From assembly GCA_019456225.1 (NCBI GenBank), contig VRUI01000041.1, positions 1 through 43,633 on the forward strand: a stretch of DNA of 43,633 nucleotides, in the 5' to 3' direction. Position 1 is the stretch's first letter; the number at the start of each line of letters is the position of its first letter. The notes under the pieces were generated by a model. That model worked only from the letters and a program-made list of their open reading frames with translations. It was not told the DNA's origin and did no database searches. The DNA comes from Planctomycetota bacterium. Its GTDB lineage: Bacteria > Planctomycetota > Phycisphaerae > Sedimentisphaerales > Anaerohalosphaeraceae. A program made the position numbers and the translations under genes. This document shows positions 7,033 through 39,876 of this stretch, one piece after another.

Positions 7033-8166
7033 TTAATATAGTTTCGACATATTGATCTTGTCTACATCGCCTTCGTCTTCCTGAATGCTCAGGATCGAAT
7101 CGTCAATGTTCTCAGTCAGACTGCCTGCCGCCCTGTACAGTGCGAGGATGTTTTCCAGCGGCGAGCCTACCTGTATCGCGTGCGTTGGGCCCAGGAAAAG
7201 GCCGCCCTTTGGAAATATATCCAGGCGGCGTTTTACTTCTCTTTCTACGTCTTCTGGTTTGTCCCACGCCAAAGTACTCTGAACGCACATCGACCCGCAG
7301 AATACCAGCTTATCGCCAAATTGCTTTTGCAGATTGGCGATATCCATCTCGGGCGTGGTCGGCTGAACAACATCGTATACGTCAAGGCCCAACTCTATCA
7401 GCCGTGGAAGCAGTTCGTAACAACAGCCGCAAATATGCTGCATAACCTTGGCGCCGTAGCTGTGCGCCATGTCGGCGTATTTTTTATACTTTTCGGCAAA
7501 ATGCTTTTCGAAAATATCCTTGCTGATCATCAAACCGTTTTGCGTACCGTAATCCTCTCCGATATGAGCAAAATCGATCAGGCCGCCTCCTGCCTCCAGC
7601 GTCCGGCGGTGCTGCTCGTAATAGAATTCAAACCGCGCATCCATTATTGCCAGGTACACAGGATTGCTGTCGATCAGATCCATCAACACCTGCTCCATGC
7701 CGCGGGCCCGCGCAATACCGTTAATAAAATCAGTATCGCCCGGAGTGCCGCAGACAACCGCGTAATCTTTAAGCTTTTCGCATTGCTGCTTGATGGTCGA
7801 GTAGTCAAACCAATCGGCGGTCGGAAAATGCGAACGATCCAGGTCCTCAAGCTTATTGATACCGGCAAAGGGCATATAACTGGCCTCAAGGTATTTGCCG
7901 CCTTCGAACTCGGCATAGGTATACCGCTCGCCAAAATAGCCTTCAACACTGCCATCGGGAAAAGTCCGAAGCTCCGGGCCGATATATTCAGGCTCGACAT
8001 AACGAAAGTCCTCGCCAACAACGCGCAAAAGCTGCTCCATGTTCGTTAAGCCAAAATGATCCATGATCATATGGTTGATCTCAGGAGTCCCCTCATGCTT
8101 GATCGGAATGCGATCGTAACCAGTTCGATTAAAAGCTCCCAAAACACGTTCTTTTGATGTCATCAT
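7033..8166 (-). CDS. URO-D-superfamily corrinoid-type methyltransferase, paralogue 1
   Basis: 377 residues opening TSKERVLGAFNRTGYDRIP, the usual start of the uroporphyrinogen-decarboxylase/methylcobamide methyltransferase superfamily. The strand carrying the first zinc ligands is present as QHICGCC (His 244, Cys 246), i.e. the H-x-C-G pattern of MtaA/MtbA-type enzymes. The third, C-terminal Cys is not in its usual place: the equivalent loop reads LFLGPTHAIQ. It is therefore unlikely to be heme-pathway HemE and more likely a methyl transferase with a corrinoid or similar cofactor; the substrate is unknown. It starts 28 bases after the rhamnosidase and precedes the acetylesterase, so it is part of a glycan operon. 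No corrinoid-binding partner is adjacent. Confidence 0.75.
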   Translation of the reverse strand: MMTSKERVLGAFNRTGYDRIPIKHEGTPEINHMIMDHFGLTNMEQLLRVVGEDFRYVEPEYIGPELRTFPDGSVEGYFGERYTYAEFEGGKYLEASYMPFAGINKLEDLDRSHFPTADWFDYSTIKQQCEKLKDYAVVCGTPGDTDFINGIARARGMEQVLMDLIDSNPVYLAIMDARFEFYYEQHRRTLEAGGGLIDFAHIGEDYGTQNGLMISKDIFEKHFAEKYKKYADMAHSYGAKVMQHICGCCYELLPRLIELGLDVYDVVQPTTPEMDIANLQKQFGDKLVFCGSMCVQSTLAWDKPEDVEREVKRRLDIFPKGGLFLGPTHAIQVGSPLENILALYRAAGSLTENIDDSILSIQEDEGDVDKINMSKLY

Positions 8167-8194
8167 ATTTATATTCCTTAAAATATTTTCAGTT

Positions 8195-10978
8195 TTACTT
8201 TACAACAGACTTAAACTCGTATTTCCCCGATTCTACTTTAAACACGGCTTTATTCTTTTCCATACGCAGGAAGGTAACACCCTCAGCGTCGGAAGCAGAC
8301 AATCCAGCTTCGGTTATATTTTTTCCGGGCACATAAACCGTTGCCGTGCTATTTGGCGGGACGGTTACTTTCCACTTAAAAGTGTCATCTATTATCTTCC
8401 AGTCACTAACGATCTTGCCGTACATAGACTTATAAGATGCTTTGGCCCAGGTAAGGTCGCCTACCGGATTCGGGCGTAAAATTACATGCTTGAATCCCGG
8501 ATTCTGCGGGTCGTGGTTTATGCCTGCCAATGTCTTATAGAACCACGCTTCGAGATTACCGGCCAGGACCAACAAGCCCTCGCTATTCATGCCGGCACCT
8601 GCTGTGTCTGAGTCCCAGCGTTCCCAAACGGTTGTCGCGCCTTTACTAACCATATATCCCCAACTGGGTCGTGTTTCCTGTGCAGCAATGGTGTAAGCCA
8701 CCTCCGGGTAGCCGGTGTCTGTGAGTACCTGCATTAGATAAAGCATTCCAACCATGCCCACAGACAGATGCTTATTGTGGGTTACCATGATGTCATCAAC
8801 GAGCCTTGCCGCAACTGCGTCCCGCCTGTCCGGGTCAACCATGTCAAATGCCAGCGGAAGTATGTAGGATGTTTGAGTACCGTTACCATACCGGTTCTTT
8901 TTCGGGTCGAAGAAACGCTTGTTGAAACCCTGCTTGATTTTCCCGCCCAGATCCTTAAAATGCTCCTGATCGGCTGTCTTACCCAGCAATCCCGCTACAC
9001 GGGCCATTGTCCGGCAGTTGTTGTAATAATATGCCGTTGAGAGCAATGGTGGTGGAGTATGCCCTTTCGTCTTGCCCTTTCCGTCCATCGAGTACACATC
9101 GACCCAATCACCGTAGCGATTGTGGTCTACCGTGAAGTCTGGTTTCAGATAGCCGGATATGAACTTCATCCACTTCTTCATCGTATCGTAATTATGCTCC
9201 AATGCCCGACGATCGCCGTAGAAATCATGTTGGATCTCAGGTAGAATTACTATATTGCTTGGCCAGACGATACCCTTGTGGTAAAGCGACCAGTAGGTCG
9301 GCGAAACATCTGGAATCTGCCCGTCGTCAAGTTGATCGAGACGGATATCGCCGAGCCATTTGGTCAATAGCCCCGCCATGTGAAAATTGTAAGCGTTACT
9401 TTCAAAATCCTTGGCCTGGGTTCCCAGCCAGCCCTGGCGTTCGTCTCGGTCGGGTTCCATGGAAAGACTTCGAATATAGGCGCGTTGAGTCCATCGGATA
9501 TTACTAAAGATTCTGTTGATCAGAGGGTTTGAGCAGGAAAATTCGCCATGGTTTTCAAAATCAGTATGGATCACCAGGCCTTCGAAGTTGTCAGATTTCG
9601 GCTCGCCGCCAAATCCCGTAACCTCCACGTAGCGATAGCCCTGACCCTTGAATCGCGGGTGCCAGGTTTCTATCCCTTTGCCTTTGAGAATATACACATC
9701 GGTGGAAAGTGCCGTGCGATTGTCTCTCATTCGCAGGGTGCCGTCGGGGTTTACATTGTATGCGCTGCGCATCTGAACTCGTATTCCCGCAGAGCCGGAC
9801 ACTTTAAGTCGCACACTGCCGTAGTAGGCCTGTCCCATATCTACGATGTACATTCCGGGTTTGGGACTGGTTATCTTTTGCGGGTTTCTGGTTTCGATGA
9901 TACGCATCGGCTCTATCATTTGCGATTGTAAAACTCCGCCGGGCGGTTGAACCAATTCAACCTTTTTCCATTTCGAATCATCAAAATTGGCACTATCCCA
10001 TCCGGGCATTTCCATGCGAGCGTCATATTCTTCACCGTCGAATTCATTATTACTGCGAATGGGACCCCGGGTCGTCACCTTCCACTCGGGGCCACTGACA
10101 AAGTCCTGTATCGTGCCGCCCTCGTATTCAACACGCATGTGCATCATTAATTTCGGATAGCCCATACTTTTTACGTTTCCCGGAGACGTCTCTCTGGGCG
10201 CGAAGTATCGACCATTACCAAGCACGATGCCTACGCAGTTCTTGCCTGATGCCAGGTAATCGCCCACATCAAACGTCACATAGAACGCACGTTTTCTGTA
10301 GTCCGTCAATCCAGGGTCCATGATATGATCACCGACCTTGCGGCCATTGATATGAAGATCAAAAAACCCCAGGCCGCATACATAGGCCGTCGCCCGGGCA
10401 ACTTTTTTCGTAACCTCAAAGTCACGACGCAGATAACGCGCCGAAAGGCGAGTACGGTTGTCTTTGCTTTTATTTACGGCAATATCCTGCTTTTCAATGC
10501 CGATCCATCTGGCCCCTTGCCAGTCGACGGGTTTCAGCAGTCCCATCGACCACATGCCAGGTTCACTCCACTTCGAAGACTTGCCGTCCATATCCCATAC
10601 CATGACTTTCCAGAAGCATTGCATTGAAGACACAAGCTCCTTGCCATCGTAAGCAACATGAATAGACCGATCCGATTGCACCTTACCGGTGTCCCATAGA
10701 TCGCCTACGTTCTTAGCAAGTTTTTCACGAGAACTTGCCACAAGCACATGATAGGCGGTCTGCTTCTGACCACGATGACTAGATTTGCATATCCAACTCA
10801 ATCGAGGCTTGTCCACATCAACACCCAAAGGATTAACAAGATACTCGCATCGAAGACCGGCAGGGCTGAGCAGTTCAGAACCTGATGATTGTATGCTGAC
10901 ATTAAATCCAGTGCAGGATGTCATTGCTAAAAGTGCACATATCAGGATTACTGCCGAGATTATTTTGATTCGGTTCAT
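8195..10978 (-). CDS. alpha-L-rhamnosidase (GH78), lipoprotein
   Basis: 927 residues. The N-terminus has a lipoprotein signal (LICALLAMTSC, lipobox Cys about residue 22), so the enzyme is probably anchored to a membrane facing the periplasm or outside. Domains follow GH78: an N-terminal beta-sandwich from PAGLRCEYLVNPLGVD, a Bac_rhamnosid_N-like domain (TAYVCGLGFFDLHINGRKVG), the (alpha/alpha)6 catalytic domain with the acidic signature DRDERQGWLG, then TTVWERWDS, and a C-terminal beta-sandwich. In most members the residue after GWLG is Asp; here it is Thr. I flag this as odd but cannot tell whether activity is affected. It releases terminal rhamnose. The AAGGAAAAG ribosome site supports the start. 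It lies between the DUF1080 and methyltransferase genes with small gaps. Confidence 0.9.
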   Translation of the reverse strand: MNRIKIISAVILICALLAMTSCTGFNVSIQSSGSELLSPAGLRCEYLVNPLGVDVDKPRLSWICKSSHRGQKQTAYHVLVASSREKLAKNVGDLWDTGKVQSDRSIHVAYDGKELVSSMQCFWKVMVWDMDGKSSKWSEPGMWSMGLLKPVDWQGARWIGIEKQDIAVNKSKDNRTRLSARYLRRDFEVTKKVARATAYVCGLGFFDLHINGRKVGDHIMDPGLTDYRKRAFYVTFDVGDYLASGKNCVGIVLGNGRYFAPRETSPGNVKSMGYPKLMMHMRVEYEGGTIQDFVSGPEWKVTTRGPIRSNNEFDGEEYDARMEMPGWDSANFDDSKWKKVELVQPPGGVLQSQMIEPMRIIETRNPQKITSPKPGMYIVDMGQAYYGSVRLKVSGSAGIRVQMRSAYNVNPDGTLRMRDNRTALSTDVYILKGKGIETWHPRFKGQGYRYVEVTGFGGEPKSDNFEGLVIHTDFENHGEFSCSNPLINRIFSNIRWTQRAYIRSLSMEPDRDERQGWLGTQAKDFESNAYNFHMAGLLTKWLGDIRLDQLDDGQIPDVSPTYWSLYHKGIVWPSNIVILPEIQHDFYGDRRALEHNYDTMKKWMKFISGYLKPDFTVDHNRYGDWVDVYSMDGKGKTKGHTPPPLLSTAYYYNNCRTMARVAGLLGKTADQEHFKDLGGKIKQGFNKRFFDPKKNRYGNGTQTSYILPLAFDMVDPDRRDAVAARLVDDIMVTHNKHLSVGMVGMLYLMQVLTDTGYPEVAYTIAAQETRPSWGYMVSKGATTVWERWDSDTAGAGMNSEGLLVLAGNLEAWFYKTLAGINHDPQNPGFKHVILRPNPVGDLTWAKASYKSMYGKIVSDWKIIDDTFKWKVTVPPNSTATVYVPGKNITEAGLSASDAEGVTFLRMEKNKAVFKVESGKYEFKSVVK

Positions 10979-11038
10979 TTCTTTTCCTTAAAGTATAATT
11001 TAAGGTACCTAGTACAATTTTCTCAATTTTCTTTGCTT

Positions 11039-11866
11039 TTAATTTTCTTTGTTGTTTAGTGTTCGAATCCAGATGTTTCGGAATTGTACTGGGCTGTTGT
11101 GGCCCATTAATATGAGGGGCAGTTTTTCTGCGTGAGGTTTATACTCAGAGATTGCCCGCCAAGTCATGGGGCCATGGATCGTCGTATTTAAATGGACAAG
11201 CACTCCGTTGTGCAGCATTGTGACGCTAGCTGGTTTTAAGAGTTTGCCGTCTTTGAAAACGGGTGCGGTAAAGATAATATCAAAACTCTGCCATATCCCA
11301 GGCAGACGGCAGGCATTTAACAGAGGCGGGGTTTCACCGTATATAGCAGCACATTGACCATCGGGGTAAATCTGTTTTTTATGCGATGGATGAGAGTCGA
11401 ATATCTGAATTTCATAAAGGCCCATTAATAGCACGCCGTTGTTGCCCCGATTGCTGAACACCGGGCTGGGCTTCTGAGGGGTCATAAACTCTAAATGAAG
11501 TTGGCAATCACCAAATGAATCGCGTGTTGTCAGGCTGCCGCTGGCAGAAACTATTGCCCCATCAGATAATTCACAATCGCTCTTATGCCACTGAGATAAA
11601 TTTTTGCCGTCAAAAAGTATCTTCGCATCCGAGGGCGGAGCAATGGATATATCGGCAGTACCTGTGTCGACAAAGGGTGGGATCGGACGATAAGGGTCGT
11701 GCTTAATGTAGCTGCACCATGGGAGTTTTGGGGTATCAGGATGGCCATAGACGCCTTGAGGGGTCACAATGGATTTGACCGCTTCAACGTTGGAGGCCAG
11801 AATGAAAACGATGCAGATGCATATTGGCAAAGCATGCAGAAGACGAAATATGCGAGATTTATTCAT
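11039..11866 (-). CDS. DUF1080 protein (3-keto-disaccharide hydrolase-like domain), exported
   Basis: 275 residues from the ATG at 11866; an upstream TTG would add 9 residues but lacks a ribosome site and would bury the signal peptide. The signal peptide is LLHALPICICIVFILASNVEA. The mature part holds the DUF1080 laminin-G-like fold: AKILFDGKNLSQWHKSD, then the aromatic/acidic strand LHLEFMTPQ, NRGNNGVLLMGLYEIQIFDS and the C-terminal QFRNIWIR strand. Some family members cleave 3-keto-glycosides made by periplasmic sugar dehydrogenases; others are only predicted carbohydrate binders or hydrolases. It is the first gene of the minus-strand glycan operon, 60 bases before the rhamnosidase. Confidence 0.85.
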   Translation of the reverse strand: MNKSRIFRLLHALPICICIVFILASNVEAVKSIVTPQGVYGHPDTPKLPWCSYIKHDPYRPIPPFVDTGTADISIAPPSDAKILFDGKNLSQWHKSDCELSDGAIVSASGSLTTRDSFGDCQLHLEFMTPQKPSPVFSNRGNNGVLLMGLYEIQIFDSHPSHKKQIYPDGQCAAIYGETPPLLNACRLPGIWQSFDIIFTAPVFKDGKLLKPASVTMLHNGVLVHLNTTIHGPMTWRAISEYKPHAEKLPLILMGHNSPVQFRNIWIRTLNNKEN

Positions 11867-12016
11867 ATGTAAAACTTTCTTTTTTGAATACAAAGAAGAG
11901 GTGTCGCGGGCATAGTTAGCCCTGATTCATTTTGTTATCATTTTAAAGAGCGATGTCTGCCCAAGCCTATCAAGAGTATACCAATACCATGTTTGGGCGA
12001 TAGAGTCAATTTAATT

Positions 12017-29358: not shown

Positions 29359-29401
29359 TGTAACAACCTTTCTTTTTCTAATATATTCGTATACGTAAAA
29401 A

Positions 29402-30355
29402 TTATTTCCAGATTTGATTAATGAATTTCTTTACTGTAGCAACTGCTTTGGGGTGACGCATTCGGACAATATCTACGCCCGCCTGGAGCAGACAAATCGC
29501 CGTTGCCGCTTCCCACATTGGACCTCTGTCGTCGACCGGGCCCCATTGTTCTGCGTCCATCTTGGCTTCTTTAACCCGCCATGATTCGTATCCTGCGTCG
29601 CAGATTGCCGGCATAGCCATCATTTTATCGCCGCCCAAAGCCGCCATACGCTGACGTTCCTGAATCGAGTATGCATATTCAATACCATAACCCAATGCGC
29701 CGGTTGCCTGGAACGTCACTATCTTTTCGAGTGGAAAACCCATGTCAGATGTCAGGATATTAACTTGCTTTGCGATGTTAATATCCAGAGGAGCCTTGGT
29801 AATAAGGTGATGGCCGTCTGCAAGGGCAATCGCGGTAAGAGATTTGTAATTATCCTCTTCGACCGGTCCGATCAGGCAGTTTTCGCCTTTTGCCGCTTGA
29901 CTAACCATCGGCAGGATTTTGTTGTCTTTTTCATTGTTGCCGCAGCCCCACAGCACCAGCGGTACCCCGACAGCAGCGAGTACGTCCTGGGTAACTTTAA
30001 CAGCATGTCCGCCGTCTTTGTCGCCGGTGTCCGGGTGAATGCCGTCGAACGTCAGACAAATCATGTCTGCACCAGATTCTTCGACGCATTTCTTCGCCCA
30101 GTCGGCCGGACTGTCCAACACGCCCTCGTAGCTCTGTGCCAAAACGTCGGGCCAGGTTTCGGGCCTGGTGTCTATAACGTCCATCGCGATAACGGGTTTT
30201 TGCCCCGCATCGCTGCTTGAACCGCCATAAACAACATTTGTTGAGCCGCCTATGGTTACTGTTGAAGTCCGAGTACCGCCCGATTCTTTTGTTGCTCCGA
30301 GCGTAACACGATTAACCGATCCGGCAAAACTATTTGTAATTTCGGGTACTGGCAT
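29402..30355 (-). CDS. acsD: corrinoid/iron-sulfur protein small (delta) subunit
   Basis: 317 residues, the usual AcsD length. Typical stretches are VTLGATKESGGTRTSTVTIG near the start, PVIAMDVIDTRPETWPDVL, MICLTFDGIHPDTGDKDGG, VPLVLWGCGNNEKD, IVTFQATGALGYGIEYAYSI and MAMPAICDAGYESWRVKEAK. The TIM barrel pairs with AcsC and caps the corrinoid during methyl transfer between AcsE and the A-cluster of AcsB. GAGG precedes the ATG. It lies 37 bases after the second cooC-like gene and 43 before acsE. Confidence 0.94.
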   Translation of the reverse strand: MPVPEITNSFAGSVNRVTLGATKESGGTRTSTVTIGGSTNVVYGGSSSDAGQKPVIAMDVIDTRPETWPDVLAQSYEGVLDSPADWAKKCVEESGADMICLTFDGIHPDTGDKDGGHAVKVTQDVLAAVGVPLVLWGCGNNEKDNKILPMVSQAAKGENCLIGPVEEDNYKSLTAIALADGHHLITKAPLDINIAKQVNILTSDMGFPLEKIVTFQATGALGYGIEYAYSIQERQRMAALGGDKMMAMPAICDAGYESWRVKEAKMDAEQWGPVDDRGPMWEAATAICLLQAGVDIVRMRHPKAVATVKKFINQIWK

Positions 30356-30392
30356 TTGAGATCCTCTTATAGTTTAAATTCACATTATTGTT

Positions 30393-31118
30393 TCAGCTTA
30401 AATTAGTCCTGAGTATTTCCTTAACCGCAAGAAACGCGGGGTTATCTTTATCAAGATCAAAAATCGTATTGCTCTGCCTGGCAATATCGTAAAGTTCCTG
30501 ATCGAATGAAATACAGCCAAGCTCGTCTATACCGTCAATCGCGATACCATTATCCGCTCTGTTCCATATCACGCCTGACTGTTTGATTTCTATCGGCAGG
30601 TTACTTACAAGACCTGCAATCCTTTTGGCGGTAACCTCTCCGATAATGGTCGGTTCGGCAACAATGCAGAGCAGGTCAACATGGTTTGTCGTCCGCCGTG
30701 ACAGATGTTCCATCCCGGCTTCATTATCCAGAATAACAAAGTCATACGAGTTGCTCAGTTTATCGATATACCGCCTTAAAAGGTTGTTTGCCGCACAGTA
30801 ACACGAAGGCCCTTCAGGGTGTCCCATAGTCAACACGTCAAACCCTTTAGCCTCGGCTACGATCTTTTGGATACCGTATTCAAAAAACCGTGACCGATCC
30901 ATGCCGTCATTATCTTTCTTATCTCGTGTCAGATCACGAATTTCCGCAATCGTTCCCTCTACCTCTACGCCCATCGTCAGGGCAAGGCAGGAATTAGGGT
31001 CGGCATCAACGGCAAGAACGCTTCCCGCCGACTGCTCGACCAATGCACGTACTATCATAGACGAAATGGTGGTCTTACCGGATCCGCCTTTACCGCTTAT
31101 AGCGATTGTTGTTGCCAT
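30393..31118 (-). CDS. cooC: CooC-like nickel-insertion/maturation ATPase, second copy
   Basis: 241 residues from ATG 31118 (AAGGTAAATTG upstream). The deviant Walker A is ISGKGGSGKTT, the Walker B region FVILDNEAGMEHLSRRTT, and the metal-binding C-x-C pair is in PSCYCAANN. This matches the CooC/AcsF group of MinD-like ATPases that load nickel into CO dehydrogenase or acetyl-CoA synthase. Two such genes in one operon suggest division of labour, for instance C-cluster versus A-cluster, but the sequence cannot say which serves which. Confidence 0.82.
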   Translation of the reverse strand: MATTIAISGKGGSGKTTISSMIVRALVEQSAGSVLAVDADPNSCLALTMGVEVEGTIAEIRDLTRDKKDNDGMDRSRFFEYGIQKIVAEAKGFDVLTMGHPEGPSCYCAANNLLRRYIDKLSNSYDFVILDNEAGMEHLSRRTTNHVDLLCIVAEPTIIGEVTAKRIAGLVSNLPIEIKQSGVIWNRADNGIAIDGIDELGCISFDQELYDIARQSNTIFDLDKDNPAFLAVKEILRTNLS

Positions 31119-31157
31119 CAATTTACCTTACTTAATATCTAACCGTTCGCACCTAAA

Positions 31158-31340
31158 GAACAACGAATAGACACGAATGATTTATCTTAAAAATAATAAC
31201 TCGTAATACAATCTTGTACTACGTTGTTGTTGTTTTCTCTTTTAACTCTTTTTTATCTTTGTTTTTAATCCGCGTAATCTGCGAAATCCGCGGATTAATT
31301 CTTTTTATCTTTTTCTTTTATTAGTGTTAATTCGTGGTTC
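31158..31340. repeat. intergenic element with imperfect terminal inverted repeats
   Basis: Arms 31158-31178 and 31320-31340 match at 17 of 21 bases as inverted repeats (GAAC(A/C)ACGAAT core). Inside are T-rich DNA and a perfect 12-bp palindrome AATCCGCGGATT (31285-31296) with a second half-site at 31267-31274. The right arm runs into the reactivase gene and supplies its last codons and stop. It looks like a small non-coding mobile element in the 208-base gap between two operon genes. Confidence 0.5.
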
Positions 31341-33252
31341 CAATACCGTCAAATTCTACGCTTGGAAACAGAGACAAATCCGTGTGCGGAATAAACTTTG
31401 CACGGACAAACTCTTCCATGTAACTTGCATCACTCATTAAATCTACATACGTCATGCTTTGAGCGATCGTCTCGCATGTTTCAAACGATTTCCTGCTTAG
31501 CAATGCCTGCTTTGCGCCGGCGATGGTCGTATTGCCCACAAAATGAATTCTATCTCTCGACACATCAGGCAGCATCCCAATAACGATTGCCTGGTTGATA
31601 TCAAGAAAGTTTCCAAATCCGCCGGCGAGATACACCGATTCAAGGTCTTCCGGTTCAAGCTGTGTCGCCTTGAGCAATGCACGTATAGCCGAAAACACAC
31701 CGGCCTTTGACCGAATAAGATTATCGATATCCGCCTGCGTGATCACAATTTCCGAATGTTCTTCGGATGGAGGCGACAGTTGGAATTGCAATCCTTCGTC
31801 TGCCTCTGTCAATCTTTTGTCATCACTTTCGTAAAAACGCCCGGTCCTGTCGATCATACCATGTTTATACAATTCGGCTAGGACGTCAAGAAGTCCCGAC
31901 CCGCAAACACCTATCGGATGACCGCCGCCGATAGTATCAACTTCTATCGAGCCGTCTTCAGTAATTCTAAGTTTCTCGATTGCTCCGCTGCCGGCTCGCA
32001 TACCGTGTTTAACGCCGCTGCCTTCAAACGCCGGCCCTGCCGAACTGGACGCACAGATTAGCCACTCTTTATTGCCAAGGACAACCTCGCCGTTGGTACC
32101 TATATCAGCGAGAAGAGATATCCCGCCCCCGTTATTCATACCAGTCGCCAGAACTCCGGCGACAATATCGCTTCCAACATACGCCGCAACTCCGGGCAGA
32201 CAATACAGCAGGCCCCGTTTGTTGATCTGAACGCCTGCTTCGGCGGCCCTTATAGCCGGAACAAACGCTGCCGATGCCGCAAACGGTTCTCTGCGAATGC
32301 CCGTCGAATCCAGGTTTAGCAGAAAATGCACCATCGCCGTATTACCGGCACATACGCATGCAGTAATGTCCTGCAGATCAACCTTTTGCCTGACTGCCAG
32401 AGTCACGATCAAATCGTTGACATCATGGACAATCCGATTTTGCAGTTCATCGAAAGCATTGTTTTGCTCACCGTAAATAATTCTGCGAATATAATCTTCG
32501 CCAAAACTTATCTGGCTGTTATACGTAGCCTCAGTATCGACCGTTTTGCCGATGGTCAGATCTATCAGATGGGCAACTACCGTAGTGGTACCAAGATCAA
32601 CGGCAACAGCGTAATTCGTCTTGCTATGGTCGCCTGATTCGATATCGACAAGCTCCAAAGTCCCGCCTCTGCTGCCAACAGTAACCGTTACCTTATAGTC
32701 GGTTTTTTTTAATTCCGGCGAAAGTTTTTGCAGTACGCGAAACCCCGTTTGAATTATCGGGGCATCAATGCTTTCACGAATCCCGAGGTACAAACGTTCA
32801 TGGTCGGCTGTATGGTCCTGTATGCTCGGCGGCGGCAATTCAAGATATATCTTTTGAATAAGGCTGTCCAGTTCGAGGGCGCCCTCATCCGTATCGCCCC
32901 TGATATCGCCAAACCGTTTTGCATCGCTGTCTGTAAGGATCTGACCTGCTTCAAGGCGATGCCACTTTGGGACTATCAGAGTCATGTCAGACAGCACTTT
33001 TGTCTGACACGCCAGTACAATACCTTCGCGAATTTCTTCCGGCGACAACAAACCCGTAGGCCTGCTCTTAAAATGCCCGTCGCTGACAACCACTTTGCAC
33101 TTACCGCAATACCCGTCTCCGCCGCATACGCTCGACAGGTACACACCGACCTTATGAGCAGCTTCAAGGACAGTGCTGCCCTTAGCTACTTCGGTCTTAA
33201 GTCCGCTAGGCTCAAAGCGAACAACACATTTTTTTTCTACAGATTTCACCAT
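31327..33252 (-). CDS. acsV: ASKHA-type reductive activator of the corrinoid/iron-sulfur protein (RACo)
   Basis: 641 residues. The N-terminal ferredoxin-like domain binds a [2Fe-2S] cluster through SVCGGDGYCGKC (about residues 42-53) plus a later Cys in IVLACQTKV. A linker and middle domain follow, then the DUF4445/ASKHA ATPase domain: YAVAVDLGTTTVVAHLIDL, ADIGTNGEVVLGNKEW, SSAGPAFEGSGVKHGMRAG, GVCGSGLLDVLAELY and VYLAGGFGNFLD. Such proteins use ATP to drive reduction of inactive Co(II) in AcsCD back to Co(I), and related ones serve corrinoid O-demethylases. GAGGC precedes the ATG. The last three residues and stop derive from an intergenic repeat, so the C-terminus has probably been slightly changed. 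Confidence 0.9.
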   Translation of the reverse strand: MVKSVEKKCVVRFEPSGLKTEVAKGSTVLEAAHKVGVYLSSVCGGDGYCGKCKVVVSDGHFKSRPTGLLSPEEIREGIVLACQTKVLSDMTLIVPKWHRLEAGQILTDSDAKRFGDIRGDTDEGALELDSLIQKIYLELPPPSIQDHTADHERLYLGIRESIDAPIIQTGFRVLQKLSPELKKTDYKVTVTVGSRGGTLELVDIESGDHSKTNYAVAVDLGTTTVVAHLIDLTIGKTVDTEATYNSQISFGEDYIRRIIYGEQNNAFDELQNRIVHDVNDLIVTLAVRQKVDLQDITACVCAGNTAMVHFLLNLDSTGIRREPFAASAAFVPAIRAAEAGVQINKRGLLYCLPGVAAYVGSDIVAGVLATGMNNGGGISLLADIGTNGEVVLGNKEWLICASSSAGPAFEGSGVKHGMRAGSGAIEKLRITEDGSIEVDTIGGGHPIGVCGSGLLDVLAELYKHGMIDRTGRFYESDDKRLTEADEGLQFQLSPPSEEHSEIVITQADIDNLIRSKAGVFSAIRALLKATQLEPEDLESVYLAGGFGNFLDINQAIVIGMLPDVSRDRIHFVGNTTIAGAKQALLSRKSFETCETIAQSMTYVDLMSDASYMEEFVRAKFIPHTDLSLFPSVEFDGIGTTN

Positions 33253-33261
33253 TAAACAGCC

Positions 33262-33316
33262 TCGGCCGAAAGGCCGAATCCATCATTATACATTAGACAA
33301 TAATCATTATACATTC
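33262..33316. repeat. intergenic repeat with GGCC hairpin, copy 1
   Basis: TCGGCC-GAAA-GGCCGA (33262-33277) forms a tight hairpin, preceded on the minus strand by AATG/ATAATG direct repeats (33278-33316). The same plan, in the same orientation, occurs at 39054-39090. It lies between acsC and the reactivase gene. Confidence 0.5.
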
Positions 33317-33317
33317 T

Positions 33318-33341
33318 CAAACCGGCCTTCTGGCCGGTTTG
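33318..33341 (-). terminator. strong stem-loop directly after acsC
   Basis: CAAACCGGCC (33318-33327) pairs perfectly with GGCCGGTTTG (33332-33341), a 10-bp stem with a 4-base loop, starting 1 base after the acsC stop. On the minus strand no T-run follows, so partial termination or protection of the upstream acsC/acsB message is more likely than a full stop of the operon. Confidence 0.45.
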
Positions 33342-33342
33342 T

Positions 33343-34680
33343 TTACTTCCATACTTCCTGCAGGTATTTAGCCAGCATTGAAGACTCTCTCGGTCCTACC
33401 ATGATCTCCCAGCCGGTAGCCTCTTCAAGCTTGCCGCTCATAACCGCGACATAGCCGGGGATTATCAGTTTACGATGTTTGACCTTATCTTCGACGCCGA
33501 GTTTGGTTATCGCATCGGCGACGGCTTTTTCATTGAGTTTGTCACCGGAATACGCGGTCAAGACACTCGTGCCCTCAGTATCAACAACGATGATATAGCA
33601 CGGAACTCTTGACGCCTCGACATCCGATTCGACGGTGTAATAGGTCAGCGAGAAATTCGTTGTAAAGATGACCGGAGAATTCTCGTCTGGCTCGCCGATT
33701 TCATACATTTTCGGTTCAACCTGGATAGGCTTCTGCGGATCGCTGTAAACGTTCATCACAGCAGTAAGCATTGGCAAGAGCGCGAACGGCTCAACTGTAT
33801 CGAGTATCACAATGCCGCTATACTTGCAGGCAAGGGCAATACCAGAGGCAGACTGCTCGGCTGCGTCACCTTCGCTAACGACTGAAAGTGTCGGATAACC
33901 CAAAGGCCTGAAAACTTTCTTAAGCGACAAAACACGTGCCTCGGTCAAGGATCTGAGTTCTTGTTCCAGACTCATCCCTTCAAAGGAAAGTACAATATCT
34001 TCAACGCCTAGTCCGGCGAGTTTTTCTGTAAGGTCTACAAGGTCTTTAAGCGAGCTTGCTTTAGCAACGACAGGACATTTGCTGTCGTTTGCGATTTTTG
34101 CCATTGCCTCTGCGTTATCAGCTGTCGCCGATGCGATCAAAGGTTTGCTGGCTGCTGTCTTGGCAACCGCAGCCGCCATCGCGTCGGCGCTGTCGGAACA
34201 AAGGATAAGTGCCAGATCGCTCGACTCATCGGCTTTTGCCGCCGCCGCCGCAAACGCATCAGCATCTCCGCTGTCGTTTACTACCGCAATAGCCCGGACA
34301 CCGATCTTACATCCGACCCGCTCAAACTGCAGGCCGCTTACAGTGTCTATGCGTTTTTGCAACTCATCGCCGGCCAGTTTATCCGAGACGGTTACAGCGA
34401 TAATCGTAGGGCTGTAAAATTTCTCGTCATGACGGAACAGGACGGTCTCCTGACCTGCCTGGACCTGGGTTTCCCCGGTCCCGAAAGTTATCTGACGCAT
34501 TGGCGGAGCCGCAGCCGCAGAAAGCGATTCTTTCGCCTCGTCAGAAGCACAAGGGCAATCGTCCAGTTTGGCCTTTTTCTGGGCCAGTTGCATTGCAAAT
34601 GCCAGACATGTCGGCTTGCCGCATTTTTTACAGTTTGTTTTTGGGAGAAGTTTAAAAATCTCTAGTCCAGTAAGAGCCAT
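33343..34680 (-). CDS. acsC: corrinoid/iron-sulfur protein large (gamma) subunit
   Basis: 445 residues from the ATG at 34680. That start is chosen because AAGGAA abuts the alternative ATG at 34686, and because MALTGLEIFKLLPKTNC is the conserved AcsC beginning. The N-terminal [4Fe-4S] motif is CKKCGKPTC followed 16 residues on by DDCPC. The TIM-barrel middle (LCSDSADAMAAAVAKTA, KCPVVAKASSLKDLVDLTE, DIVLSFEGMSLEQELRSL) is followed by a C-terminal corrinoid-binding domain (IIVVDTEGTSVLTAYSGDKL). It carries the methyl group as methyl-Co(III) between AcsE and AcsB. It lies 163 bases after acsB. Confidence 0.94.
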   Translation of the reverse strand: MALTGLEIFKLLPKTNCKKCGKPTCLAFAMQLAQKKAKLDDCPCASDEAKESLSAAAAPPMRQITFGTGETQVQAGQETVLFRHDEKFYSPTIIAVTVSDKLAGDELQKRIDTVSGLQFERVGCKIGVRAIAVVNDSGDADAFAAAAAKADESSDLALILCSDSADAMAAAVAKTAASKPLIASATADNAEAMAKIANDSKCPVVAKASSLKDLVDLTEKLAGLGVEDIVLSFEGMSLEQELRSLTEARVLSLKKVFRPLGYPTLSVVSEGDAAEQSASGIALACKYSGIVILDTVEPFALLPMLTAVMNVYSDPQKPIQVEPKMYEIGEPDENSPVIFTTNFSLTYYTVESDVEASRVPCYIIVVDTEGTSVLTAYSGDKLNEKAVADAITKLGVEDKVKHRKLIIPGYVAVMSGKLEEATGWEIMVGPRESSMLAKYLQEVWK

Positions 34681-34809
34681 AACCATTTCCTTTTCAGTTA
34701 CGCGGATTCAACCTGCAAAGCAAAGCCAAATCCAGTATTGTTATCCTGTTAATATTAACATTTTAGTTTCAGTTACTTCCACAAGTTAACTTCAACTTTC
34801 TATCTGCCG

Positions 34810-34839
34810 CTTGTCACTTTTTACCTGTCACTTGTCACC
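34810..34839. repeat. short direct repeats in the acsB-acsC gap
   Basis: Three degenerate units around TGTCACTT occur within 34810-34839, in the 163-base gap between acsB and acsC. There is no hairpin of note. The rest of the gap (34687-34809) shows nothing else. Confidence 0.35.
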
Positions 34840-34843
34840 AGTT

Positions 34844-37030
34844 TTAGAACATTGAGTCCATAGTCATCGCCGGGTGACCGTTTGCGCTGATCACTTCGAC
34901 AACTTCTTCTTCGGTTACCGCATTTGTCTCGTCAGCTATCTGGGTTACGAATTTTTCACCGTCGAGTCCCATTTCATTGGCCTTAGCGATAAGTTCGTCT
35001 TTGATCTCTTCTTTCAGTGCGGCCGGCATCCAGACTATACGTTGAATTCCGCCTTCCGCCGAGATGAATTTTTTCGACGCGATGTAATATTTCGAATGCC
35101 CAATGAATCCCGGCACCTGGTTTCCGCCGCCGACGGTTCCTGCCAGTGTAGAGAATTTCATGCCGCAAGGAGTCATGTCTGCAAACTCACGACCGACGAT
35201 CATGATCCCGTTAGTCGACGGCAGCAGGGCGGAGATGCACTCAAAACAACCGCAGCTGGTCATAGGGTCTTCGATCATTGAATACGCGCTCATCTTTTCG
35301 ATCTTACCCTGCGAAGCCGAGTTTATAAACTCATTGACCTTTTCCCATTGGCCAAGCTTGTTATCGACAGGTGCTCCTTTGCTGATAGGCTGGTTAGGCC
35401 CGGTAGGTGTTATTTCAAACGCCGCACGTCCGTCAAGCCACGTATAAGCACCGCAAAGACCGCTTCTTTCCGGGGTGATCACACACACGTGTGTCGGGGC
35501 AAAACTCTGACAAAGCGTACACGAATAAAACGTATCGACACTTTCGTCCGTCATGTCGGCAAGCCTTGCATTGCGAGCAGTATAAATCGCCAGTGCTTCT
35601 TCACGAAGTTTCAGAACCTCTTCTTCACCCGTATAGATTTTGACCTGCACTTTATCGACGATAGCTGAATACTGGTCATGCAGCATTCCATGAAGAATAG
35701 TTCCGAGATGGGCGATCTTAAAGCCTGCTTTAACCGCCTCGATACCCAGACGTACCCAGATAATGTCACGCTGGCCCATGTGCCAGATTCCCGACGCTTC
35801 ATTGATGAAAGTATGGAACTGTCTTTCGAGAACAGGCTCAAAATCAGACTGCATCTTTCTGCCCGAAACCTCAGCAACAATAGCAAGAGGAAGTTTTGCT
35901 CCAACTTCGACAGAATCAACCTCAGGCCCGAACACTTCAACCTTACCGTCTTCAACTTCGGAATTATCAAGCATCTTAAGCAATTCAAACGCAGGTGTCC
36001 TTTGGCCGCCGAATTCAACGTACATCTCATCCTTGCGAATTCTTTCACCCTCAAACGCCGGGCTGTAAGCTACGGGGATATCTATTTCAGATATCTTGAT
36101 CTTAAGACCGCGAACTTCGATACATTTTTCAACAATGCTCTCATGAGGAATATTAGAAACGACATGTTCGTATGTACATACGCCGGTCGGAAGGATTTCC
36201 GGAATATCGGTATCGGCAATTACCGGGAAGCCAAAGTTAATAGCACCCGCTGCCGTAGCATACCATCGGTCGGTTACTTCACCCAAAGCCATTACGAATG
36301 CGAACACCCTGTCTTTGTTATAGATAAGATTGCGATGGAAATCGCCGCACTGAACACCGCCAAAACTCAATGCCGCCCTGGCCGCAAATCCAAGAGCGTA
36401 TACTGCTGCTGTAATATCTTTGCCGAAAGGAACAAGTCTTGTTTCCCAGCCAAGCTGTATCCCGCCTTCGACGAGCTGCTCGGACATTGTTGTGCCGTTA
36501 GTTTCACCGGCCATGAATACGTACAGGCTTCTTTCCTGGCATTTCAGGGCAATATCGACTGCCGTTTGAACATCCGGTGCCGCACCTACGATAGCCGCAA
36601 AACCCGGAGCAGAACCGTCTACGAACTGAATGCCTCTTTCGCGAAGGATCAGGTCGTCGGCAGCACCAAGCCAGATACCGCTAACAGGATCAGGCCCAAC
36701 AAGGTACTTGCACGCTTCGATAATTTCCTCGGCGAACAAAGCTGCCATACCGGCATCGAGAGCAGGGCCCAGATACGGAGTCCACACATTTTCATCGACA
36801 TGCGGCGGAAGCAGACCGTCAATCTCTACGAGGACTGTTTCCATATCGGCGACAGTCGAAACCTCAATCCCGAGCATCGAATAAATAACCGGCAAACAAT
36901 AAGCGGTATTTGGGAATTCGACCGGGCAATCTTTACCTTTTTCTTCAATGACCTTAGCCAGCATTTCGCGGGCCTCGTTGGCCAAGTCATAAGCACCGCG
37001 GATAGCGGCAGAAGCAATAATTCTTGACAT
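34844..37030 (-). CDS. acsB: acetyl-CoA synthase catalytic subunit
   Basis: 728 residues, matching the bacterial (Moorella-type) alpha subunit of about 729 rather than the shorter archaeal form, because the N-terminal CODH-contacting domain is present (SAAIRGAYDLANEAREMLAK). The A-cluster ligands are visible: the [4Fe-4S] cysteines in YSCTLCQSFAPTHVC and GLCGAYTW (about residues 507-530) and the Ni-binding C-G-C in SCGCFEC (about 595-600). Near the C-terminus FADMTPCGMKFSTLAGTVGG and HSKYYIASKKF are also conserved. It makes acetyl-CoA from CO, a methyl group and CoA. AGGAG precedes the ATG; the gene follows cooS by 37 bases. Confidence 0.96.
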   Translation of the reverse strand: MSRIIASAAIRGAYDLANEAREMLAKVIEEKGKDCPVEFPNTAYCLPVIYSMLGIEVSTVADMETVLVEIDGLLPPHVDENVWTPYLGPALDAGMAALFAEEIIEACKYLVGPDPVSGIWLGAADDLILRERGIQFVDGSAPGFAAIVGAAPDVQTAVDIALKCQERSLYVFMAGETNGTTMSEQLVEGGIQLGWETRLVPFGKDITAAVYALGFAARAALSFGGVQCGDFHRNLIYNKDRVFAFVMALGEVTDRWYATAAGAINFGFPVIADTDIPEILPTGVCTYEHVVSNIPHESIVEKCIEVRGLKIKISEIDIPVAYSPAFEGERIRKDEMYVEFGGQRTPAFELLKMLDNSEVEDGKVEVFGPEVDSVEVGAKLPLAIVAEVSGRKMQSDFEPVLERQFHTFINEASGIWHMGQRDIIWVRLGIEAVKAGFKIAHLGTILHGMLHDQYSAIVDKVQVKIYTGEEEVLKLREEALAIYTARNARLADMTDESVDTFYSCTLCQSFAPTHVCVITPERSGLCGAYTWLDGRAAFEITPTGPNQPISKGAPVDNKLGQWEKVNEFINSASQGKIEKMSAYSMIEDPMTSCGCFECISALLPSTNGIMIVGREFADMTPCGMKFSTLAGTVGGGNQVPGFIGHSKYYIASKKFISAEGGIQRIVWMPAALKEEIKDELIAKANEMGLDGEKFVTQIADETNAVTEEEVVEVISANGHPAMTMDSMF

Positions 37031-37067
37031 ATGATAAATCTCCTATTCTATTTAAGGTCGGCGATTA

Positions 37068-38999
37068 TTATAATTCCAACGCCCGACGTTCTTCCATTGT
37101 GTAAAGTTTTCGTTCCTGCTTATCGCTTAATCCGAGCGCGTCGCGTTTGCTTTCGATATGGGCCAGCATCAGTTCAGCTGCCTTGATAGGGTCATTTTCC
37201 AATCCCCACTTACCGCCGAAATCCTCTTCGATTCCGCCAAGCAGGTAATTAGCAACATTTTCACTGCCCATATATTGGAAAAGGTCTTCGCCAAATATGA
37301 CATACACGCCGCTGGCGACAAAATACTGACCGATAGCCGTTGCTTTTTCGGTTACCGATTCCAGACACGCACCTGCAAGAGGCAGTTCGCTAAGATCTTC
37401 GCCAAGTCCGCCTTCAGCAACAATCTCAGAAGACGCCACAAGAAGTCGGCTGTTGTCAATACAGCTGCCGCATGCAAGGATCGGAGGCATACCGACAGTT
37501 TCGCAAACCTCTCTAAGCCCCTCACCAGCTAATTCTAACGCTTCCTTCGGGTGGAGCATCGCACACTTGCCGCATGCAACTGTTGCACATCCGGTAGTGA
37601 GCACAAGCACGTTTCGTTTGATCAATTCTTTGGACAATGCGATATGCGTTGAATCCATAGGCACCTTAGGATTGGTGCAGCCAACGATAGCAGCGATACC
37701 CCTGATCTTGCCGTTCATTATGTTATCGTTTAAAGGCCTGTAACTTGCCCTGAACCTTCCGCCGAGCATATATTTGATCGACTCGTTGGTAAAGCCCATA
37801 ACACCGGTTTCTTTTTCTTTGGGAATGTTAACATCGCCGCGATTCTTATAATTATCAATCGCCGCAATCACCATCTTTTTGGCCGTTTCCATAGCATTTT
37901 GTTCATCAAACGGAATATGTTCAACTCCAACCATTTCCGCCTGATGGGCAGTTGTAAACAGCTTCGTGTGGAATTTTTCCGCTACTTTGCCAATACCCTG
38001 CATAACGCACTGGACATCGACAGCCATCATTTCAATAGCACCCGTCGCGATAGCCAGTTCCTGACACATGAAATTACCGGCAATCGGCACACCATGTCGA
38101 ACCAGCATTTCGTTTGCAGTACAGCAAACGCCTGCAACGTTGATTCCTTTAGCACCTGCAGCCTTGGCTTTTTCAAGTATCTCAGGATCGTTAGCCGCAT
38201 CGACCATGATCTCGCTCATCAAAGGGTCGTGACCATGAACAATAATATTGACCTGATCGGAACTGATAACGCCAAGGTTTACCTCGCCTTTGCCGGGTGA
38301 AGGTGTTCCAAACAAAATATCCTGCAAATCGGTCGCAAGCATCGACCCGCCCCAACCATCTGCAAGTGCGGTTTTGCTGGCATGCCTGAGTAGACTCTTG
38401 TAATTCTGGTCGACGCCCATTGTGCTTCGATGCATCGCCTCGACAACTTCGCGGTCAATGGCACGGGGAGTAACACCTTGTTTCTCCCATATCTCCTGCC
38501 GCGGCTTTGGAGCACGCTTAACCATCAACTGGGTGCCTTCGCTTTTTCCGAATTCGCCAAGAGCGATCTTACCGACATCCTCAGCAATTTCATTATCGCT
38601 TCGATCTTTGGTTTCGACCTCAAGTTCCTTAGCCAGAACATGCAGTTTAACGCTGTCCTTAATGCGATAATCTTTCGCTTCGCCACGTGCAGCTGCAAGG
38701 AAAACCTCGGCAACTGTTCGCCCATGGTCGCTATGTGCGCTAGTACCGCCGGCTACTGCCCTGAGAAAGGCGCGGGCAACTATCGTATCAACATCCGCCC
38801 CGCAAACTCCGTGAGAAGCCTTCTTAGTGATGCGGCACGGTCCCATAGAGCATATACGGCAGCATACACCGCTTTTGCCGAAACCGCATTGCGGCTGCTG
38901 CTTTTCAAGCCGGTCCCATACGTTCTCAATACCGGCTTCATCCATAACATTTATCATCTTCTGTGCTGCTTTGTCAACACTACGTTTTTCTACATCCAT
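37068..38999 (-). CDS. cooS: anaerobic Ni-Fe CO dehydrogenase catalytic subunit
   Basis: 643 residues from the ATG at 38999; a GTG at 39011 overlaps the ribosome site GAGG and is rejected. Cluster D/B ligands are in CGFGKSGVCCRICSMGPC and CGADVDTIVAR. C-cluster and B-cluster-region residues are in IVHGHDPLMSE, INVAGVCCTANE, GCTNPKVPMDSTHI, VLTTGCATVACGKCAMLHP and ILACGSCIDNSR. It interconverts CO2 and CO and, with AcsB, channels CO to acetyl-CoA synthesis. The direct neighbour acsB indicates the CODH/ACS role rather than free CO oxidation. It follows cooC by 76 bases. Confidence 0.96.
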   Translation of the reverse strand: MDVEKRSVDKAAQKMINVMDEAGIENVWDRLEKQQPQCGFGKSGVCCRICSMGPCRITKKASHGVCGADVDTIVARAFLRAVAGGTSAHSDHGRTVAEVFLAAARGEAKDYRIKDSVKLHVLAKELEVETKDRSDNEIAEDVGKIALGEFGKSEGTQLMVKRAPKPRQEIWEKQGVTPRAIDREVVEAMHRSTMGVDQNYKSLLRHASKTALADGWGGSMLATDLQDILFGTPSPGKGEVNLGVISSDQVNIIVHGHDPLMSEIMVDAANDPEILEKAKAAGAKGINVAGVCCTANEMLVRHGVPIAGNFMCQELAIATGAIEMMAVDVQCVMQGIGKVAEKFHTKLFTTAHQAEMVGVEHIPFDEQNAMETAKKMVIAAIDNYKNRGDVNIPKEKETGVMGFTNESIKYMLGGRFRASYRPLNDNIMNGKIRGIAAIVGCTNPKVPMDSTHIALSKELIKRNVLVLTTGCATVACGKCAMLHPKEALELAGEGLREVCETVGMPPILACGSCIDNSRLLVASSEIVAEGGLGEDLSELPLAGACLESVTEKATAIGQYFVASGVYVIFGEDLFQYMGSENVANYLLGGIEEDFGGKWGLENDPIKAAELMLAHIESKRDALGLSDKQERKLYTMEERRALEL

Positions 39000-39053
39000 A
39001 AAAAACCTCACTAATAATTTAGTACAATCAAACTATCCAAAATTTAAACTTAG

Positions 39054-39090
39054 TCTCGGCCGTAGGCCGCATTCGTCATTCGTCATTAAC
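39054..39090. repeat. intergenic repeat with GGCC hairpin, copy 2
   Basis: CGGCC-GTA-GGCCG (39057-39069) with ATGACGA direct repeats on its minus-strand 5' side (39071-39090). It is the counterpart of 33262-33316, in the same orientation. The direct repeats overlap the last codons and the TGA stop of cooC. Confidence 0.5.
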
Positions 39091-39876
39091 TTCTAACATA
39101 TCAGTTAAAGCACCTTTCGCACCTCTGAGTTTCTCAACAAGTTCGGGACAAGCCTGGTAAGCACTTTTACGCTGCAGGTCTGCCTGCTGGATTTCGTTGG
39201 AATAACCGATATCTGCCAGAATGGGTAAATCCTTCAATTGTGACTTCACTTCTTCAAACTGATCGGCATTGGTAACCTTATTAATAATTGCCGCGATATA
39301 TTTAACACCAAGCTGCTTTGCCATCTGCGTTATATTTAAGGCCGTTTCAATACTCCGGCTCCCGGGCTCAACTACGATGACAAGAACATCAATGCCCAGA
39401 ATGCTGGCTCTTCCCATGCATTCAACCCCGGCATCAAGGTCAACAAAGATAACTTCCTGACGGTGCAGTATCGTATGACTCAGCAAAGCCTTAAGAAAAG
39501 CCCCCGCAGAGCACGCACACCCTTTACCAGCCGTCTTAATACCACCAAGAACCAGCAATTTAAGATTATCATCCCCAGCCTCTACGCAATATTCGTCAGG
39601 AAGGTCGCTAACTTCCGGATTAAGCTTAAAATAAGCACCGGTAGCATCACGCCCTGTCCCGGTACGTTCAGCTATCAAAGAAGTCATCTCGATCAGAGGT
39701 TTGGGACTTTGTTCGTAGGGTATGCCGAATGCATTGCATAAATTCGTATCCGGGTCCGCATCGACTGCGATAACGTCCAGTCCATCCTGAGCAAATAACT
39801 GTGCCAGAACTGCGCAAACCGTCGTTTTCCCTACTCCGCCTTTACCGCCTATTGCTATTTTTACACCTGTAAACAA
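39076..39876 (-). CDS. cooC: CO dehydrogenase maturation ATPase CooC
   Basis: 266 residues if it starts at the TTG at 39876, with AAAGG 7 bases upstream, just before the conserved VKIAIGGKGGVGKTT. An ATG at 39933 would add 19 residues with no family likeness. The Walker A is GGKGGVGKTT, then VIAVDADPDTNL, a C-x-C metal site in GKGCACSAGAF, Walker B EVIFVDLDAGVE and the VVEPGSRSIETA loop. It is a MinD-like ATPase that inserts nickel into CooS, and leads the operon directly ahead of cooS. The last residues fall in the GGCC/ATGACGA repeat. Confidence 0.88.
   Translation of the reverse strand: MFTGVKIAIGGKGGVGKTTVCAVLAQLFAQDGLDVIAVDADPDTNLCNAFGIPYEQSPKPLIEMTSLIAERTGTGRDATGAYFKLNPEVSDLPDEYCVEAGDDNLKLLVLGGIKTAGKGCACSAGAFLKALLSHTILHRQEVIFVDLDAGVECMGRASILGIDVLVIVVEPGSRSIETALNITQMAKQLGVKYIAAIINKVTNADQFEEVKSQLKDLPILADIGYSNEIQQADLQRKSAYQACPELVEKLRGAKGALTDMLEVNDE

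Follow-up and report, generated by a model that had tools for sequence, protein, structure and literature searches.

In the present study, we analysed a 43,633-nt stretch of DNA from a Planctomycetota bacterium (assembly GCA_019456225.1, contig VRUI01000041.1; hereafter the window), which is the entire contig C90 of a draft genome (the host genome) of 4.45 Mb and 95.8% completeness. Our subject is three genes within it that encode proteins of the uroporphyrinogen decarboxylase (URO-D) fold, here called P0001, P0002 and P0003, together with an operon for carbon monoxide dehydrogenase/acetyl-CoA synthase (CODH/ACS) on the same contig, and the question of whether these proteins might take methyl groups off sugars by way of a corrinoid protein.

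The gene of P0001 (positions 7033–8166, minus strand; PF01208, E 3.6e-15) lies 28 bp behind a gene of the same direction for a GH78 alpha-L-rhamnosidase (8195–10978, minus strand; Bac_rhamnosid6H, 306.6 bits), upstream of which stands a gene for a 3-keto-disaccharide hydrolase-family protein (11039–11893, minus strand; PF06439, 112.3 bits), and it is followed after 246 bp by the gene of a SASA-family carbohydrate esterase (4837–6786, minus strand; PF03629, 66.1 bits). P0002 (20672–21778, plus strand; PF01208, E 9.5e-27) is preceded, at a distance of 150 bp, by a GH2 glycoside hydrolase (17582–20521, plus strand; PF02836, 110.8 bits). P0003 (24178–25245, plus strand; PF01208, E 3.4e-32) sits inside a polyol operon, 30 bp behind a GlpD-like FAD-dependent dehydrogenase of the DAO family (22474–24147, plus strand; PF01266, 127.6 bits) and 33 bp ahead of an FGGY-family carbohydrate kinase (25279–26802, plus strand; PF00370, 213.9 bits), which overlaps by 4 bp the last gene of the operon, a glycerol-dehydrogenase-like Fe-ADH (GldA-like; 26799–27914, plus strand; NF006941, 403.4 bits, cut-off 336).

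The CODH/ACS operon (28546–39933, minus strand) lies about 3, 7 and 20 kb from the three URO-D genes and brings together in one window the bacterial gene set of CODH, ACS, both CdhD-type subunits of the corrinoid iron-sulfur protein, an AcsE-like protein, the activator RACo and two CooC-type ATPases. In the order of their coordinates, and all on the minus strand, these are the AcsE-like methyl-tetrahydrofolate:corrinoid methyltransferase (28546–29358), the AcsD-like small subunit of the corrinoid iron-sulfur protein (29402–30355; PF03599, 102.1 bits), a CooC/AcsF-like P-loop ATPase (30393–31121; CbiA/AAA_31 matches), the RACo/AcsV-like corrinoid activator of CODH/ACS (31327–33252; PF14574, 308.2 bits), the AcsC-like large subunit (33343–34686; PF03599, 346.8 bits, and PF04060), the AcsB-like acetyl-CoA synthase (34844–37030; PF19436, 393.5 bits, and PF03598, 217.9 bits), the carbon monoxide dehydrogenase CooS/AcsA (37068–39011; TIGR01702, 635.8 bits, cut-off 478) and a CooC-like maturation ATPase (39076–39933; PF01656, 70.7 bits). 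The AcsE-like and RACo/AcsV proteins match their Pfam families and stay below the NCBIfam cut-offs (250.5 against 259 and 588.2 against 800, respectively). Upstream of the operon and on the same strand lies a gene for a DUF3786 protein (40241–40840). A first-pass annotation, made from the letters of the sequence alone, had described the three URO-D-fold genes in rhamnosidase/esterase, post-GH2 and polyol contexts, with a CODH/ACS operon including AcsE and RACo nearby and no shuttle corrinoid protein in the window; this description holds, with PF01208 matches beyond chance, Pfam support for the operon (AcsE and RACo at the level just given) and no shuttle named among the proteins of the window.

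Family membership and predicted active site

With PF01208 scores of 56.3, 94.3 and 112.3 bits for P0001, P0002 and P0003, respectively (cut-off 23.9), all three are members of the URO-D superfamily, of which the host genome encodes 16 proteins (17 matches, two of them within one gene). The hemE model TIGR01464 gives P0002 and P0003 only 23.4 and 32.9 bits against a cut-off of 302.95 and does not match P0001 at all. The MtaA/CmuA model TIGR01463 gives 34.4, 73.0 and 91.8 bits for the three proteins and a cut-off of 235.4 that none reaches. Models of methylcobalamin methyltransferases thus fit all three better than hemE does, in every case with scores below the curated NCBIfam cut-offs. In a 41-row tree, for which two fusion proteins were trimmed to their first 360 residues and two HemE reference rows from relatives were chosen by the RQAGR motif, P0001, P0002 and P0003 fall within a clade of 24 rows (support 100/98). 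HemE lies outside it, on the opposite side of the tree together with the corrinoid-adjacent MtaA-like rows and one further host protein, C47a; thus none of the three groups with HemE-type decarboxylases, the placement that the first-pass annotation had named as fatal to its idea.

RQAGR is a motif that marks HemE, and it is absent from all 16 URO-D proteins of the host genome (a draft, at the completeness given above). Consequently, the organism may be without a classical uroporphyrinogen decarboxylase, as far as its sequence allows such a prediction.

Residues resembling a metal site are conserved. An H-x-C-G motif with a distant His is common to 10 of the 16 host proteins, most of which also carry a GDDxGxQ-like stretch; none of the ten varies at D220, H261, C263 or H345 (P0002 numbering). 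P0001 belongs here with H244, C246 and H329, which are invariant in all 14 rows of its alignment (taken without L164, where the URO-D frame is split in two), and P0002 with H261, C263 and H345. P0003 is of the H-x-D-G...N type (H230, D232, N315), invariant in the 15 rows of its group, from which L223, with an internal stop, was left aside. Among the remaining host proteins C47a has H-x-C...C, three including P0003 have H-x-D-G, one has H-x-D-A and one has neither. The H-x-C...C site of the MtaA/CmuA type is therefore absent from the window, P0001 and P0002 having H-x-C...H and P0003 H-x-D...N. In MtaA the corresponding residues bind zinc, and a zinc ion is predicted at the P0001 site as well. 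AlphaFold models of P0001 and P0003 (pLDDT 91.5 and 92.7) both have the methyltransferase 4ay7 as their best Foldseek match.

Rhamnose genes and corrinoid operons around relatives

Scanning public species genomes with P0001 yielded 10 loci with orthologues of 63–76% identity, labelled Pirellulales, Bacteroidota (five), Ignavibacteria (two), Hydrogenedentota and one unnamed bacterium. A GH78 or GH106 rhamnosidase or the transporter gene RhaT lies within 5 kb of the orthologue at 6 of these 10 outside loci compared with 1 of 47 control loci (Fisher p 3.8e-5; p 0.0026 against 19 corrinoid-protein loci alone), the controls, searched with the same tblastn, being 19 corrinoid-protein loci (1 hit), 14 loci of P0003 relatives (0) and 14 other host URO-D genes (0), many of which end at contig edges. 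Some queries of this first test came from the tested loci themselves; repeated with queries solely from outside the ten loci, it again gave 6/10 against 1/47. At other B12-protein loci of the P0001-bearing genomes rhamnose genes were found in 0 of 10, a count that excludes L187 and L188 (which have rhamnosidases and supplied queries), L190 (on the contig of L161) and L197.

The neighbourhood is kept in varying forms. A GH106 rhamnosidase lies 11 bp upstream of the orthologue in L157, GH106 genes flank it on both sides, with a GH78 gene in addition, in L158, and GH78-type genes do so in L160; RhaT follows by 17 bp in L159, where a GH106 match lies 1.3 kb upstream, and by 772 bp in L161. L164 has a GH106 fragment upstream (tblastn, 160 bits), in which Pfam named only a GH2-type domain. 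O-methyl-rhamnose, in the form of 3-O-methyl-rhamnose, is named in papers on bryophyte, charophyte and fern glycans. A separate observation concerns the host contig C78, where the genes of the rhamnose mutarotase RhaM, of RhaT and of the one MttB-family methyltransferase found in the genome are consecutive and a GH127 gene comes next (L036:5183–8091); this MttB-family protein, set among rhamnose genes, is a further candidate for an enzyme of methylated sugars, belonging to a different family.

Genes for members of the same URO-D clade also occur with corrinoid-protein genes, and one genome adds rhamnosidases within the operon. At L161 the gene order is MtaB, corrinoid protein, MtaA-like URO-D protein and B12-activation-domain protein, then, after 155 bp, the P0001 orthologue and RhaT. 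The Bacteroidales genome of L158 holds two such sets. In one (L187), GH78, URO-D, GH106 (in two frames), PF02574, corrinoid-protein, MtaA-like, activation-domain, small-membrane-protein and AraA/FucI-like isomerase genes follow each other on one strand with gaps of -4 to 418 bp. In the other (L188), the order is GH106, a PF02574-like gene (by phmmer only, Pfam having been run there on the SASA and URO-D proteins), corrinoid protein, MtaA-like, activation protein, isomerase, SASA and URO-D, the SASA gene lying downstream of the corrinoid-protein gene set and 33 bp from the URO-D gene. In another Bacteroidota genome (L189) the gene of a P0002 relative (45% identity) and that of a corrinoid protein share 8 bp; after them come an MtaA-like/thioredoxin fusion, CobW and PF02574, and the search for rhamnosidases at this locus gave none. 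A gene for a putative methyltransferase I is linked to a corrinoid-protein gene in L189, L187, L188 and, directly behind the operon, L161, but not in the host genome. At L195 a relative (70%) of the host protein C89 is followed by a corrinoid protein, and at L198 AcsE-like and MTHFR genes stand beside one. An MtaA-like neighbour occurs at 7 of 19 corrinoid-protein loci, a biased rate, because L140–L146 were chosen for a URO-D gene on the same contig. Searches of plasmid records, which returned 2 and 7 records, added a Thiodictyon row of corrinoid-protein, URO-D and ASKHA-protein genes and a Chloroflexota URO-D-like gene amid sugar genes.

Two side observations belong to these operons. A membrane protein of 174–182 aa is conserved beside the corrinoid-protein, MtaA-like and activation genes (L161:4454–5002, L187:11678–12202, L188:13036–13560), and to judge by sequence it is possibly a small-molecule transporter, a function that is guessed. 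Fusions of an MtaA-like URO-D protein with a thioredoxin-like domain occur near corrinoid-protein genes in two Bacteroidota-labelled genomes (L189:5667–7289, by CobW, and L186:10621–12243).

P0003 has matches at E 1e-40 in 12 of 392 genomes of the phylum, its own included. Its closest orthologues (59–63%) adjoin FGGY, DAO or GldA-like genes in three of three cases by tblastn, with one or two of the three polyol genes at each locus, all of which are cut by contig ends; the remoter relative at L226 adjoins an MttB-family gene. A polyol role for P0003 is therefore well supported, a methyltransferase chemistry much less so. Within the host genome, 9 of the 16 URO-D genes, the three of the window included, lie near sugar genes, on a Pfam scan of chosen neighbours that left those of C73c, C73d, C34 and C89 aside. 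Two URO-D genes on C77 keep company with an aldo-keto reductase, an alcohol dehydrogenase and a ribose-type ABC transporter; the neighbours are GH38 and PfkB on C73; GH127, a sodium symporter, an RraA-like protein, a hydroxyacid dehydrogenase and a glycerate kinase on C133; a sugar MFS transporter and a sulfatase on C130; and a sodium symporter and an AraA-like isomerase on C57. On C51, an H-x-C-G...H URO-D gene stands between HemB and a pyruvate-formate-lyase-like glycyl radical enzyme with an activase-like gene (L032:3177–8853). Close to the edge of the window (132–683) lies a C-terminal fragment of a DDE transposase gene.

Shuttle protein, methyl fate and competing explanations

The first-pass annotation had proposed to search the rest of the genome for corrinoid proteins of the MtaC/MtbC kind and for MtrH-like genes. 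For the former, a shuttle-type corrinoid protein of 210 aa with PF02310, PF02607 and the base-off motif DLHDIG is encoded on contig C97 (6203–6835), and a second RACo-family activase, besides that of the CODH/ACS operon, on contig C61 (PF14574, 251.4 bits). MtrH returned no match in the host genome, and the Pterin_bind matches there are confined to the AcsE-like protein and one protein that appears to be FolP-like. A weaker B12 protein of 274 aa (C47cor, L024:8970–9794), 2.8 kb from the URO-D gene C47a, was considered as a shuttle and rejected; its scores with B12 models are low (45.3 and 38.5 bits), and it is probably a B12 protein of another kind. In the P0001-bearing genomes, a stand-alone corrinoid protein with D-x-H-x-x-G is present in 8 of 10, five of which also have a long MetH-like frame.

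From these data we are inclined to believe, with guarded confidence, that P0001, P0002 and probably P0003 are corrinoid-dependent O-demethylases of methylated sugars or polyols, P0001 acting on O-methyl-rhamnose. They would be methyltransferase I enzymes of the URO-D superfamily, each moving the O-methyl group of an imported methylated sugar or polyol onto a corrinoid shuttle protein in its Co(I) state, whereupon the plain sugar would enter the operon that houses the URO-D gene. P0001 would most likely work on O-methyl-L-rhamnose that the GH78 enzyme sets free. The C97 protein would serve as shuttle, kept reduced by the RACo-type activase of C61, and the methyl group might pass on to tetrahydrofolate (the AcsE-like protein working in reverse), to methionine, or by way of the corrinoid iron-sulfur protein to acetyl-CoA. 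The demethylation proposed by the first-pass annotation thereby gains a non-HemE identity of the enzymes, a shuttle and an activase in the genome, the rhamnose linkage and the corrinoid operons of the clade. More tentatively, we extend the proposal to the whole of this large, unassigned, cross-phyla URO-D clade, multicopy in glycan degraders, whose members could be sugar-specific, oxygen-independent O-demethylases, one specificity for each glycan operon with one common shuttle; in this organism they would open a path by which ether methyl groups of glycans from algae or plants reach acetyl-CoA.

Several results weigh against the corrinoid-demethylase reading. Neither the C97 nor the C61 gene has a URO-D gene next to it in the retrieved DNA, and a single shuttle-type protein stands against 16 URO-D proteins in the host genome; one shuttle serving 16 enzymes would be unusual, though sharing could occur. 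In one relative as many as 85 first-look URO-D candidates go with two PF02607 matches among those listed. Moreover, the pair seems to have other work: in a survey of 118 genomes of the order, PF02607 is present in at least 115 and RACo in 104, including 8 of the 10 genomes without URO-D; at each of 19 shuttle loci retrieved from relatives the protein is a C97 orthologue (280–339 bits), and seven of these loci belong to genomes without any URO-D match. Full-length MetH (about 1250 aa) appears among the matches listed for G004, G049 and G083, all within the 14 of 118 genomes that lack RACo (chance probability 0.0014). This pattern, together with the shuttle in URO-D-free genomes, points to methionine synthesis as the probable core job of the C97 shuttle and the C61 activase. 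No rhamnose gene was found within 5 kb of the orthologues in L156, L162, L163 and L165 (contig ends truncate L156 and L165) or of the host paralogue of P0001, C47b (88% identical), no shuttle was found in the P0001-bearing genomes G121 and G126, and no corrinoid protein beside the P0003 orthologues. At Rfam gathering scores, neither a cobalamin riboswitch nor any other match turned up in 7 host and 8 P0001-related stretches (nine others gave one tRNA; L024, L028, L031 and L163 were outside the scan). P0003 lacks the site Cys, and in VIA-align UroD structures and 4ay7 tie for P0001 (Z 24.2 and 23.7), so that the fold by itself decides nothing.

As observations in their own right, the pattern in G004, G049 and G083 suggests that RACo stands in for the activation domain of MetH in this order, and G043 and G054, with genomes of 4.8–4.9 Mb, have 85 and 57 first-look URO-D candidates (16 scored in each), possibly an extreme expansion of the family. 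With at most 16 candidates scored per genome, all URO-D counts of the order survey are lower bounds.

It would be unlikely, though a serious alternative, that the proteins demethylate sugars as proposed while the methyl groups go to methionine or the folate pool, the nearness of CODH/ACS on the contig being incidental. The PF02574 homocysteine-methyltransferase-like genes in the corrinoid operons of L187 and L189 (by Pfam) and L188 suggest methionine as the destination in Bacteroidota, and the AcsE-like and MTHFR genes flanking the L198 corrinoid protein suggest folate. Furthermore, the CdhC match of acetyl-CoA synthase occurs in 29 of the 118 genomes of the order against at least 108 with PF01208 genes, and 33 of the 89 CdhC-less genomes still have at least 8 URO-D matches; CODH/ACS is thus not obligatory for URO-D genes. 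On the other hand, genomes with CdhC are richer in URO-D matches, with a median of 9 compared with 4 in those without (Mann-Whitney p 0.0098, with genome size uncorrected and at most 16 scored), and the AcsE-like protein is the sole Pterin_bind match of the host genome apart from the FolP-like one. Acetyl-CoA as the destination would be possible and convenient in the host genome, and we rate this route below the corrinoid sugar-demethylase reading itself.

A different reaction of the URO-D fold on sugars, by a metal-dependent lyase, isomerase or decarboxylase that needs no corrinoid, the corrinoid operons of relatives being a separate matter, seems improbable to us. Such an enzyme would agree with the lone shuttle and its retention in most URO-D-less genomes described above, and with a His at the third site position as in HemE, where most MtaA-like rows have Cys. 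It would leave unaccounted for the overlap of the P0002 relative with a corrinoid-protein gene in L189, the operons of L187 and L188, in which URO-D genes of the clade occur together with corrinoid-protein and rhamnosidase genes, and the P0001 orthologue behind the MtaB/corrinoid operon in L161. As for HemE-type uroporphyrinogen decarboxylases or decayed copies of them, the Pfam name, the common fold and the close UroD structure matches are easily put together into such an identity, which the hemE scores, the absence of RQAGR and the tree contradict, and with which the sugar-operon contexts disagree; we regard it as barely conceivable.

Comparison with known systems

If corrinoid-dependent sugar demethylation proves true, it would account for the complete breakdown of methylated glycans by bacteria in anoxic habitats and would assign a role to a large family that now goes under the wrong name of uroporphyrinogen decarboxylase. 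Corrinoid ether cleavage, known for aryl ethers, would then extend to those of sugars, and acetogenesis and methionine formation could draw on a further source of methyl groups. For P0001 the prediction is so specific that a single enzyme and three or four sugars would suffice to test it.

The nearest counterparts in kind are the three-component anaerobic aryl O-demethylases (OdmB, VdmB, MtvB, MtoB) and the chloromethane system CdmBCA, which are described as consisting of a URO-D methyltransferase I, a corrinoid protein, a methyltransferase II and an activase (PMC13222342). They share with our proposal a URO-D-superfamily methyltransferase I working with a small corrinoid protein; however, they act on methoxyaromatics or chloromethane, while the window genes and their relatives are found among genes for rhamnosidases, sugar transport and polyol metabolism, with a shuttle that in the host genome is unlinked and would need to be shared (the comparison is by description, not by sequence). 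A bacterial mlp cluster comprises MtaA-like proteins together with a corrinoid protein and an activase of the Ram type (PMC10418091). To MtaA, MtbA and CmuA the window proteins are linked by superfamily, by best model matches, by the Foldseek match to 4ay7 and by the H-x-C kept in P0001 and P0002, yet they differ in scores far below the cut-offs, in a third site residue that is His rather than Cys and in their separate tree clade.

The oxidative P450 demethylation of 6-O-methyl-D-galactose in marine bacteria, the described way of removing the methyl group from a methoxy sugar, serves the same purpose of taking a methyl ether off a sugar, but by a monooxygenase that releases formaldehyde, with no corrinoid (PMC10033563). 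Split cobalamin methionine synthase with a DUF4445/RamA-like activator (PMC5764234) resembles the C97/C61 pair in its separate corrinoid protein and RACo-family activator and is probably the model for that core role; it leaves unexplained the clade URO-D genes in corrinoid operons with rhamnosidases. In open full text (PubMed Central; subscription literature lay outside the search) we found no description of corrinoid O-demethylation of sugars. Taken together, URO-D-type corrinoid methyltransferase systems are known in kind, and what is new here is sugar methyl ethers as the probable class of substrate, along with the specific prediction for P0001.

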